Positions 18,425 to 40,798 of a stretch of 42,170 bases of DNA are shown one piece after another; the stretch's first letter is position 1; each line of letters starts with the position of its first letter. This DNA comes from Candidatus Methylopumilus sp. (GTDB lineage Bacteria; Pseudomonadota; Gammaproteobacteria; Burkholderiales; Methylophilaceae). A program made the translations under genes and the position numbers. The stretch spans positions 1 to 42,170 of the forward strand of contig SHXT01000011.1 of the NCBI GenBank assembly GCA_009693175.1, given 5' to 3'. Below the pieces are notes generated by a model. That model was given only the letters and a program-made list of their open reading frames with translations. It was not told the DNA's origin and searched no databases.

Positions 18425-19285
18425 TTAATTGCTTGAAGATAGCATCAATGATTTAATTTTTTTCATGGCTGCTTGTTCGATCTGTCTAATTCTTTCAGCC
18501 GACACACCTAGCTTGTCCGCAAGCTCATGAAGCGTTGAAGTATCTTTTTCTTTAAGCCATCTTTCTTTGACAATAAGACGACTTCTTTCATCAAGTGACG
18601 CAAGTGCTTTATTTAAGGTTGAGAGACTATTGCCTTCGGATTGATTGATTTCCATTTGTTCAGAAGGTTCAGGCGTCTCGTCCTTGAGATAAGAAATAGG
18701 TCTATATACATCATTTTCTGACTCTTCAGTACCATAGTCTAAAGAAATTTCGTTACCATTGAAGCGATATTCCATCTCGCGCACATCTTTGGGTTTAACA
18801 TTAAGCTCTTTTGCAATCGATTCGATTTCATCAGATTTAAGTGGTTGAAGTGTCTTTTTCATGCTTCTTAAGTTAAAAAATAACTTACGCTGAGCTTTGG
18901 TTGTAGCTGTTTTAACTAAGCGCCAATTTTTAACAATATATTCTTGGATCTCAGCTTTAATCCAATAAATTGCAAATGAAACAAGCCTAACGCCTCTTTC
19001 GGGATCAAATCGTTTAACGGCTTTCATCAGGCCAATATTGCCCTCTTGAACAAGATCTGATTGTGGAAGTCCATATCCTGAGTAACCCTTGGCTACTTTA
19101 GCAACCAATTTTAAATGAGATAGAACGAGTGTTTTTGCCGCTTCAAGATCGTTCGATTTCTTAAGGCGCATACCCAAAGCCAACTCCTCCTCAGCCGAGA
19201 GGGATGGGATCGCTCTAATGGATTGCATATAACGATCATAGCTATCAACAGAACCTAATGTAGGTAAGCTTAATTCCAAAGTCAT
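18425..19285 (-). CDS. rpoH: RNA polymerase heat-shock sigma factor sigma-32
   Basis: A 286-residue group 3 sigma factor. Region 2 ('DLVQEGNIGLMKAVKRFDPERGVRLVSFAIYWIKAEI') is followed by the RpoH box QRKLFFNLR at residues 132-140, which separates RpoH from other sigma factors. The region 4 helix-turn-helix is near the C-terminus ('LADKLGVSAERIRQIEQAAM'). It should direct polymerase to promoters like the one before grpE. Start: ATG with AAGGAA nine bases upstream. The gene has its own promoter region with a CIRCE operator, so transcription is probably repressed by HrcA. ftsX ends 130 bases upstream on the same strand. Confidence 0.97.
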   Translation of the reverse strand: MTLELSLPTLGSVDSYDRYMQSIRAIPSLSAEEELALGMRLKKSNDLEAAKTLVLSHLKLVAKVAKGYSGYGLPQSDLVQEGNIGLMKAVKRFDPERGVRLVSFAIYWIKAEIQEYIVKNWRLVKTATTKAQRKLFFNLRSMKKTLQPLKSDEIESIAKELNVKPKDVREMEYRFNGNEISLDYGTEESENDVYRPISYLKDETPEPSEQMEINQSEGNSLSTLNKALASLDERSRLIVKERWLKEKDTSTLHELADKLGVSAERIRQIEQAAMKKIKSLMLSSSN

Positions 19286-19312
19286 CTTATGAAATTCCTT
19301 GTAAAAACTTAA

Positions 19313-19321
19313 TTTATACCA
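19313..19321 (-). promoter_or_regulatory. extended -10 promoter of rpoH
   Basis: On the minus strand TGG followed by TATAAA (19321-19313) gives an extended -10 element with no good -35. Predicted transcription start is near 19306, leaving a leader of about 20 bases with the Shine-Dalgarno AAGGAA. The CIRCE element begins seven bases upstream of the TG, covering the -22 to -48 region. Confidence 0.6.
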
Positions 19322-19327
19322 ATAATT

Positions 19328-19354
19328 TTAGCACTCTTCACTAGAGAGTGCTAG
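19328..19354. promoter_or_regulatory. CIRCE operator (HrcA binding site) upstream of rpoH
   Basis: TTAGCACTC (19328-19336), nine-base spacer, GAGTGCTAG (19346-19354). This matches the CIRCE consensus TTAGCACTC-N9-GAGTGCTAA at 17 of 18 arm positions. It lies 43 bases upstream of the rpoH ATG and just upstream of an extended -10 promoter. HrcA, encoded at 39779-40798, is the known CIRCE-binding repressor. The match is too exact to be chance in a 130-base gap. Confidence 0.93.
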
Positions 19355-19414
19355 TTTAATAAAGTTCAATAGGAAGTATGATGAATAGTTAATTAATCTA
19401 ATAAAAACAATTGG

Positions 19415-20320
19415 TTAAGATATATCATATTTTTTCATAGATTGATTGATAGAGATAAAAGAAGCTATAACGGCAATTAAAATTGAACTAATAATGATCA
19501 AAAGGTATTGCAAAAGGCTTAAGTCAATAATGATAAATTGGGTGCCGTATAACGCCTCCACTTCAACAATGGTTTGATTGATGAATATTACAATTAATTT
19601 AAGTACGATCGCCGCAGTTAATCCACCACCTAAGCCGTAAATAAAACCGCTATATAAGAATGGACGTCTAATAAAACTATTCGTAGCTCCAATTAACTTA
19701 CTAAGCTCAATTTCTTCATGATGAGAGGTCATTTGTAAATGAATTGTATTGCCAATAACAACAGTTAGCATAGATGCTAATAAAATCGATGCTAATAAAA
19801 TGGCTTTATTAGCGAGTTGCAGTATGGAATTTAATTTTTTAACCCATTCTGTATCCATAATAATTTGATCGATTCCTTCAAGTTTATCTAAAAATAACTT
19901 TAATCCTGAAATTTCAACTGGATTAACGGTGTTAGGCGAAATAAAGAACGCATCCGGCAATGGATTTTCTGAAAGCCCATGATTCGAGTCATTAAACCCT
20001 AGTGATTTTTGCAGTTTAGGCCACACATCCTCTTTCTTTACAAAATGATAGCTATTGATTTCAGGACGACCTTTTAATTCTCTTTCGATTTTATTTCTGG
20101 TTTCGATTGAAGTGTCTTTTTTAAGAAAAATACTAATTTGAGATTCGTGTTGTATATTTTGTGAGAAAGATTTTAAGTTTTGTACGACAAGGAAAGACAG
20201 GCTGGGCAAGATAAGAGTTATACCTATCACTAAAAACATCATAAGAGTTGACATTAAAGATGCATGACTTCGCTGAAGCGCTATGAGAAACATATAACAA
20301 TGAGAAGTTAAATAATTCAT
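19415..20320 (-). CDS. ftsX: cell-division protein FtsX
   Basis: ABC-type permease-like partner of FtsE that links division to control of peptidoglycan hydrolases in the septal membrane. The 301-residue protein has four membrane spans: one near the N-terminus (about 22-45) and three after residue 165. An extracytoplasmic domain lies between span 1 and span 2 ('SQISIFLKKDTSIETRN'). The 'HHEEIELSKLIGATNSFIRRPFLYSG' segment is a FtsX hallmark. Start directly follows the ftsE stop (TAAATG). Confidence 0.95.
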   Translation of the reverse strand: MNYLTSHCYMFLIALQRSHASLMSTLMMFLVIGITLILPSLSFLVVQNLKSFSQNIQHESQISIFLKKDTSIETRNKIERELKGRPEINSYHFVKKEDVWPKLQKSLGFNDSNHGLSENPLPDAFFISPNTVNPVEISGLKLFLDKLEGIDQIIMDTEWVKKLNSILQLANKAILLASILLASMLTVVIGNTIHLQMTSHHEEIELSKLIGATNSFIRRPFLYSGFIYGLGGGLTAAIVLKLIVIFINQTIVEVEALYGTQFIIIDLSLLQYLLIIISSILIAVIASFISINQSMKKYDIS

Positions 20321-29763: not shown

Positions 29764-29790
29764 AATTGGGACGATCTTGAATATTTCAAG
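29764..29790 (-). promoter_or_regulatory. candidate sigma-32 promoter of dnaK
   Basis: On the minus strand CTTGAAA (29790-29784) and TCCCAATT (29771-29764) are separated by 12 bases. The -35 is perfect for sigma-32 and the -10 matches CCCCATNT at about five of eight positions. It lies in the 69-base grpE-dnaK gap. The -35 forms half of a palindrome CTTGAA-TAT-TTCAAG at 29776-29790. Confidence 0.5.
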
Positions 29791-39778: not shown

Positions 39779-40798
39779 TTAATGTTGACTCAGTGCATTA
39801 GAAAGAAGTTTTGCTGTGATATCGACAATTGGAATAATTCTTTCATAGGCCATTCTTTTTGGGCCTATCACGCCTAAAGTTCCCACGATCTCATTATCTG
39901 TTTGATAAGGCGATGTGATAAGACTGCACTCATCAAGTGATGAGTAGCCGGATTCATTGCCAATGAAGATTTGAATACCATCGGCTTTTTGACTAGCATC
40001 AAGAAGCTTCATCAGTGCTGTGCGTTTTTCAAAGACTTCAAAAATCTTTCTAAGGCTAGATATATTTTTTGCTAGCTCCTCAGATTGAATAAGATTTCTT
40101 TGGCCTGTAATCACGATAGATTCATTTTCTGGCTGAATAACATCATTACCGACTTCAATTGCAGCGGTCATAAGTTTAATCATATCGGTATGCATTCTTG
40201 ATAATTCATCTACCAAAGTATCTTTTACTTTCGAAAAAGTATTGCCGCTAAAGTTATGATTAAAATAATTAGCTGCTTCAATTAAATCATCAGCACAATA
40301 GTTTTTTTCAGTTACCACGACTCTATTTTGAACATTGCCATCATTGGTCACGATAATTACAAGTATCTTTTTCTCAGATAAGCCAATAAATTCCAAATGC
40401 TTAAAAGTCGTTTTTTTAACTTTAGGAATTAATACCACACCTGCGAATTGGGTGAGTGTTGATAAAATATTTGCTGCAATGTTAATAAGTTGTTTGCTAT
40501 CACCCACGTTCATTTGAATTTGTAATGAGGCTACAATTTTATTATCTAATGGTTTGACGGTAAGCAGTGAATCTACAAAAAGCCTATAACCCATTTGTGT
40601 AGGTATTCTGCCAGCCGAAGTATGTGGACTTGTAATAAAACCAAGATCTTCGAGATCCTTCATAGTATTTCGAATAGATGCAGGGCTTAAGTCGAGACCA
40701 GATGACTGAGAAAGCGTTCTTGATCCTACAGGCTGACCATCGTTAATATGTTGTTCAATGAGGGTTTTTAGGAGAATTTGGGCGCGCTTATCTAACAT
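39779..40798 (-). CDS. hrcA: heat-inducible transcription repressor HrcA
   Basis: Repressor that binds CIRCE and needs GroE to stay active. The 339-residue protein has an N-terminal winged helix (about residues 1-75: 'DGQPVGSRTLSQSSGLDLSPASIRNTMKDLEDLGFI' pattern, then 'SPHTSAGRIPTQMGYRLFVD'). A GAF-like central region and the C-terminal 'LGVIGPKRMAYERIIPIVD' follow. Its likely target in this window is the CIRCE site at 19328-19354 before rpoH. No CIRCE is seen in its own 182-base upstream gap. It heads hrcA - hemH - hldD - gmhA - hldE - waaF and is divergent from nadK. Confidence 0.96.
   Translation of the reverse strand: MLDKRAQILLKTLIEQHINDGQPVGSRTLSQSSGLDLSPASIRNTMKDLEDLGFITSPHTSAGRIPTQMGYRLFVDSLLTVKPLDNKIVASLQIQMNVGDSKQLINIAANILSTLTQFAGVVLIPKVKKTTFKHLEFIGLSEKKILVIIVTNDGNVQNRVVVTEKNYCADDLIEAANYFNHNFSGNTFSKVKDTLVDELSRMHTDMIKLMTAAIEVGNDVIQPENESIVITGQRNLIQSEELAKNISSLRKIFEVFEKRTALMKLLDASQKADGIQIFIGNESGYSSLDECSLITSPYQTDNEIVGTLGVIGPKRMAYERIIPIVDITAKLLSNALSQH

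Follow-up and report, generated by a model that had tools for sequence, protein, structure and literature searches.

What governs rpoH, the gene of the heat-shock sigma factor sigma-32, when the operator of a heat-shock repressor stands directly in front of it? Repression by HrcA and activation by sigma-32 are generally regarded as two heat-shock systems that either replace each other or run in parallel. In the window, by which we mean the whole stretch of 42,170 nucleotides analysed here, a CIRCE operator lies inside the 129-base gap between ftsX and rpoH (Table 1). The reading we favour, to which sequence comparison leads us to give a probability of roughly three in four, is that HrcA would repress rpoH through CIRCE by occluding two overlapping promoters, one of the sigmaE type and one of the housekeeping type, as part of a stress circuit placed above sigma-32.

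Table 1. Features discussed in the text, with positions in the window.
Feature	Position	Strand	Remarks
rpoH (sigma-32)	18425..19285	minus	286 aa; TIGR02392 382 bits against a curated cut-off of 323
Probable ribosome-binding site, AAGGA	19296..19300	minus	assigned by eye
Extended -10 proposed by the sequence-only reading, TGG-TATAAA	19313..19321	minus	string present; unconserved
Candidate housekeeping extended -10, TGC-TAAAAT (TGCTAAAAT)	19325..19333	minus	CIRCE right arm plus AAT
CIRCE operator	19328..19354	minus	CTAGCACTC-TCTAGTGAA-GAGTGCTAA, read on the minus strand
sigmaE-type -10, TCTAG	19341..19345	minus	within the loop of CIRCE; spacer of 16 bases to the -35; fifth base does not fit TCNNA
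sigmaE-type -35, TGAACTT	19362..19368	minus	6/7 to GGAACTT; starts 14 bases upstream of CIRCE
ftsX, upstream neighbour	19415..20320	minus	TIGR00439 252.6 bits, just under the cut-off of 255
sigma-32-type promoter upstream of dnaK, CTTGAAA-N13-CCCAAT	29765..29790	minus	12/13; no CIRCE
sigma-32-type promoter upstream of grpE, CTTGAAA-N13-CCCCAA	30368..30393	minus	12/13; no CIRCE
hrcA, cognate repressor	39779..40798	minus	TIGR00331 332 bits, over the cut-off; matches chain 1stz_A

We found a single match to TTAGCACTC-N9-GAGTGCTAA in the window, with 17 of 18 arm bases and one mismatch, while 100 dinucleotide shuffles of the window averaged 0.01 matches when as many as three mismatches were allowed. 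A 17/18 CIRCE upstream of rpoH, as an earlier sequence-only reading had reported it, is thereby confirmed. That reading had set the operator 43 bases from the ATG; it does lie upstream of this codon (19285, minus strand), at a distance of 42 bases, and the interval named at the time, 19313-19354, takes in the TGG-TATAAA string together with CIRCE. Across the genome assembly (1.17 Mb, 35 contigs, 97 % complete), CIRCE occurs at two places at up to three mismatches: before rpoH, with one mismatch, and upstream of groES, where it is exact. A reversed control pattern also gave two matches per strand genome-wide at this threshold and none at up to two mismatches; therefore matches with three mismatches mean little by themselves, and the true places have none and one. 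The gene order is ftsY-ftsE-ftsX-rpoH, all on one strand. The genome has one hrcA, inside the window, which lacks its own CIRCE when three mismatches are allowed and whose product matches the chain of an HrcA homologue of known structure; RpoE is also encoded in the genome (284.8 bits). Among named records, the closest RpoH proteins are those of a Methylophilaceae MAG (L139, 92 %) and of Candidatus Methylopumilus universalis (L140, 91 %).

The sequence-only reading had suspected a less common wiring and had suggested a search for the repeat upstream of rpoH in relatives. The repeat is kept there, and the arrangement turns out to be the usual state. The CIRCE arms are identical in the window and in 11 same-genus rows, and 99 of 100 genomes of the family have a CIRCE match at up to two mismatches, mostly two matches each. 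Among 80 named loci found by RpoH similarity, 71 carry CIRCE (at most four mismatches) upstream of rpoH; the nine without it belong to a Neisseriaceae MAG, gammaproteobacterium MFB021, three Halomonas, two Salinicola, one Chromohalobacter and one Nitrococcus. In the class, taken as GTDB Gammaproteobacteria with the betaproteobacteria included, we sampled 127 genomes of 120 families, and 97 of them have CIRCE upstream of rpoH. Their best matches are bimodal, with 0-3 mismatches in 97 genomes, 6-9 in 30 and 4-5 in none. This sample is drawn from 173 class genomes with RpoH at threshold, and the 46 outside it comprise the window's own genome and G146, which are covered by other sets, genomes that came second in their family, and genomes beyond the matches listed. 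Within the order, the site is present in 73 of the 87 genomes examined, out of 147 with RpoH; the window's genome and three more from its family belong to other counts. Outside the class, 20 families of the phylum gave one weak match (four mismatches, G428) and 19 best matches at 7-9 mismatches, with one rpoH copy per genome considered even though several of these genomes have more. In this sample, CIRCE at rpoH is usual within the class and rare outside it. Two RpoH matches were seen in each of G144, G275 and G403, and the G403 copy examined has no CIRCE although hrcA is present in that genome.

The presence of the site follows that of the repressor gene. With hrcA called at E <=1e-20 and the site at no more than four mismatches, 93 of 101 hrcA-positive class genomes have the site, as against 4 of 26 hrcA-negative ones (Fisher p 2.6e-14, a value that overstates independence because the genomes are related). 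The exceptions thus number eight and four, and some of them may come from assembly gaps or diverged HrcA proteins. In the order the split is perfect, with the site in 73/73 hrcA-positive and 0/14 hrcA-negative genomes, but it hinges on the four-mismatch cut, since three hrcA-positive genomes (G123, G235, G107) have four mismatches and the hrcA-negative G131 has five; with a looser cut, 1/14 hrcA-negative genomes would have the site. The first 67 order genomes divided into 59 and 8 exactly by hrcA, and for 20 further genomes, where the outcome was predicted from hrcA alone before the sequence was read, all 20 fell as predicted. With the site both conserved and present or absent together with hrcA, HrcA control of rpoH, as the sequence-only reading had proposed, is well supported at the level of sequence.

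G131 itself deserves a closer description. It gave no hrcA match, and the two genomes that share its genus code, G175 and G216, carry both hrcA and a CIRCE that is exact. The five mismatches of its CIRCE, at positions 0, 7, 18, 19 and 23, all fall outside the bases of the -35, of the -10 (positions 9-13) and of TGnTAAAAT, which remain; this is a single case. Other unusual loci were seen as well. In G310 and G425 (L222 and L133), a degenerate palindrome, TGTGCACTC-N9-GAGTGTTAA, accompanies a sigmaE-type -35 at rpoH, and no hrcA was found in either genome; it could be a relic or the target of a diverged regulator. The groES gene of G310 is without CIRCE. In the hrcA-positive G341 (L231), the region upstream of rpoH has a repeat resembling CIRCE, whose spacer appears to be 8 bases long and whose left arm is worn.

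The bases in and around CIRCE also resemble a sigmaE promoter, for which the consensus is a GGAACTT -35, a spacer of 15-17 bases and a TCNNA -10. In the window row, the whole sigmaE-type promoter scores 9/11. Judged on the window alone, however, it fails: the motif occurs twice, against 0-5 times in 10 shuffles, which is not above chance, and the claim for this genome consequently rests on its relatives, where the support comes from the comparative register. In the family alignment, a GAACTT-like string stands ahead of CIRCE and the start of the loop is common to the rows. GGAACTT (at least 6/7) lies at -16 or -17 relative to CIRCE in 32 of 59 order sites and 52 of 97 class sites, and any other offset accounts for at most two sites in these sets; in Methylophilaceae, among which we counted L141-L147 on similarity and record titles, it lies at -14 in 29 of 44. 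With a 16-base spacing, the -10 falls at CIRCE positions 7-11 (TCTNA), and in the -14 register at positions 9-13 (TCNNA). Among rows whose -35 matches at 6/7 or better, a -35 at -14 is paired with -10 register 9 in 28 of 31, and of the 128 with a -35 at -16 or -17, 80 have register 7, none has register 9 alone and 48 fit neither. The -35 and the -10 shift together relative to CIRCE.

When the rows are pooled, a sigmaE-type promoter (at least 9/11) is found near 208 of 261 rpoH CIRCEs, and in 187 of these cases its -35 has an offset between -14 and -17, compared with 1-14 such promoters in total in each of 20 shuffles of the upstream bases; the remaining 53 CIRCEs have no sigmaE-type promoter at this threshold. 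Counting distinct contexts only (L009 and L142 are identical over the stretch, and named and other records may otherwise share genomes), the numbers are 207 of 260 and 186. L168, whose upstream sequence is short, was excluded from the flank statistics despite its two-mismatch site. Among class genomes with the site, an adjacent -35 of at least 5/7 is present in 71 of 90 that encode RpoE and in none of the seven that do not (p 5e-5); at 6/7 or better, the counts are 53 of 90 and 0 of 7 (p 0.003).

The sigmaE-type promoter is not always placed in this way. In some class genomes without CIRCE, for example G348 and G387, one lies before rpoH on its own. A further register, in which the promoter ends exactly at the start of CIRCE, was observed at L188, L193, L175, L202 and L199; these loci belong to two Achromobacter (L188, L193), an Alcaligenaceae MAG, a Cupriavidus and a Burkholderiaceae genome. 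In a hand-picked set of 11 named loci, the promoter abuts CIRCE in five, lies elsewhere in three and is missing at threshold in three. It would not be justified to assign the Bordetella SigE promoter to the overlapping register, as the Achromobacter promoter abuts CIRCE instead, and the adjacent -35 of L188 and L193 matches at only 2/7.

A second promoter may share the right arm of the operator. Of 44 Methylophilaceae rows, 43 retain the final AT that follows CIRCE, as do 67 of 97 class sites, against 1 of 25 groES CIRCEs, and this AT is found in class genomes with RpoE (61/90) and without (6/7). Because the AT is kept in RpoE-negative genomes, where the adjacent -35 is absent, TGCTAAAAT would be a separate element of the housekeeping type. 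We take it as a candidate extended -10 on account of its conservation, although most of its bases are fixed by CIRCE itself. The groES CIRCEs, in this genome and in 25 class genomes, offer a useful comparison: they have the same operator and presumably the same repressor, but differ in the bases around it. Besides the rarity of the AT, a -35 at these offsets and TCTNA were each found in 0 of the 25 (30 groES loci, five of them without CIRCE). By eye, a TTGA-type string stands upstream of many groES CIRCEs.

The sequence-only reading had assigned the rpoH promoter differently, to TGG-TATAAA as the -10, with CIRCE over the -35 region. In a model built on it, HrcA would repress rpoH from this single housekeeping promoter, and the sigmaE-like bases would go unused in the genus. 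The string is indeed present, at a suitable distance, and the sigmaE match in the window is, as noted, imperfect and by itself at the level of chance. Yet none of the other 11 rows from the genus has TGG-TATAAA (10 of them are distinct, L348 being the same as L140 over the stretch), whereas the -35 (at least 6/7), the CIRCE arms and AAT are present in all 12 genus rows (11 distinct). By eye, the other genera of the family share no similar string between CIRCE and the start codon. We consider this model unlikely, and TGG-TATAAA is probably not the main promoter: the sigmaE-type promoter and TGCTAAAAT are conserved in its place.

With ftsY, ftsE and ftsX upstream on the same strand and a gap of 129 bases, rpoH could also be expressed mostly by read-through from these genes, and HrcA on CIRCE would then act chiefly as a roadblock or have little effect. 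The conservation in relatives of promoter-like elements interlocked with CIRCE speaks against this, and we regard it as quite unlikely. It seems still harder to believe that the inverted repeat works at the RNA level, by folding the rpoH leader into a hairpin that alters stability or translation with temperature. Pairing between the inverted arms, 8 to 9 bases long, would be possible, and RNA-level roles are known for CIRCE and for the E. coli rpoH message. However, a transcript made from the sigmaE -10 would begin inside CIRCE, and one made from TGCTAAAAT beyond it, so neither would contain the full hairpin, and the presence of the site tracks hrcA; we therefore give this explanation very little weight. 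A functionless palindrome, left by chance or as a relic, is scarcely credible: the chance expectation, the conservation over many families and the absence of the site where hrcA is absent all speak against it.

Returning to the reading in which HrcA occludes both promoters, what the DNA itself shows is the site, its conservation, its co-occurrence with hrcA, a fixed sigmaE register among the relatives, and promoters of the sigma-32 type before grpE, dnaK and groES. We infer that HrcA binds and represses at rpoH and that either promoter is used there. The left arm and loop of CIRCE would take up the spacer and the -10 of the sigmaE (RpoE) type promoter, and the right arm would form part of the candidate housekeeping extended -10; HrcA seated on one operator could then block both start points by steric exclusion. 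GroEL is known from other species as the sensor of HrcA, which is inactivated through titration of GroE, and by analogy we assume the same link in this circuit. Unfolded protein would engage GroEL, HrcA activity would be lost and rpoH would be freed; sigma-32 would then raise grpE, dnaK and groESL. Envelope stress would enter through sigmaE at the same 50 bases.

The grpE and dnaK promoters are the only two sigma-32-type matches of such strength in the window, and 10 shuffles give 0-1. The groES gene of this genome (L001, G000:C26) has a sigma-32-type promoter, CTTGAAA-N14-CCCTAT, upstream of its exact CIRCE. Given these promoters and the lack of CIRCE at grpE and dnaK, HrcA would act directly on rpoH and groESL, and its control of dnaK would pass through sigma-32. 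With its own CIRCE, groESL would complete a coherent feed-forward loop, closed by GroEL. The circuit proposed in the sequence-only reading, with HrcA above sigma-32, is kept as an inference.

How does this arrangement compare with known systems? A 2003 study by Permina and Gelfand is said, by its title, to cover these regulons in betaproteobacteria, and it may already report CIRCE at rpoH. To our knowledge, E. coli has no CIRCE, and none of the control genomes that gave an hrcA match is that of E. coli. In Geobacter sulfurreducens, a CIRCE has been predicted at position -51 of rpoH beside the groESL CIRCE (Rodionov 2004, PMC545781), so that, as here, both genes have the operator. That case differs in lying outside the class (the species is a deltaproteobacterium in PMC545781), in having CIRCE also at hrcA-grpE-dnaK-dnaJ, and in being a prediction only; the part of PMC545781 drawn on here describes no sigmaE promoter at its rpoH. 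In the betaproteobacterium Bordetella bronchiseptica, the part of PMC3490749 (2012) drawn on here reports that SigE transcribes from an rpoH (fam) promoter in vitro, and the likeness would be that an RpoE-type sigma factor drives rpoH; the words HrcA and CIRCE are absent from its main text. The E. coli rpoH promoter P3, a sigmaE promoter, is also named in that source; there too the likeness to our locus would be that sigmaE drives rpoH.

CIRCE at rpoH and sigmaE transcription of rpoH are thus separately in print. In the literature searched, which misses most subscription journals, we found no description of their interlocking, of its spread or of its tie to hrcA. It is tempting to go further and propose, with about even odds, that rpoH in the class is ruled by an old three-input element of some 50 bases, consisting of an HrcA operator, a sigmaE promoter and a housekeeping extended -10, in which cytoplasmic stress (GroEL/HrcA) and envelope stress (sigmaE) are combined before sigma-32, and that control of the E. 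coli kind derived from it after the loss of hrcA and CIRCE. The locus would offer a small and testable example in which the operator of a repressor has bases in common with promoters for two types of sigma factor. If this reading is right, many beta- and gammaproteobacteria would have the HrcA and sigma-32 systems stacked one above the other, sigmaE would feed into the same DNA as a third input, and E. coli would be an exception.
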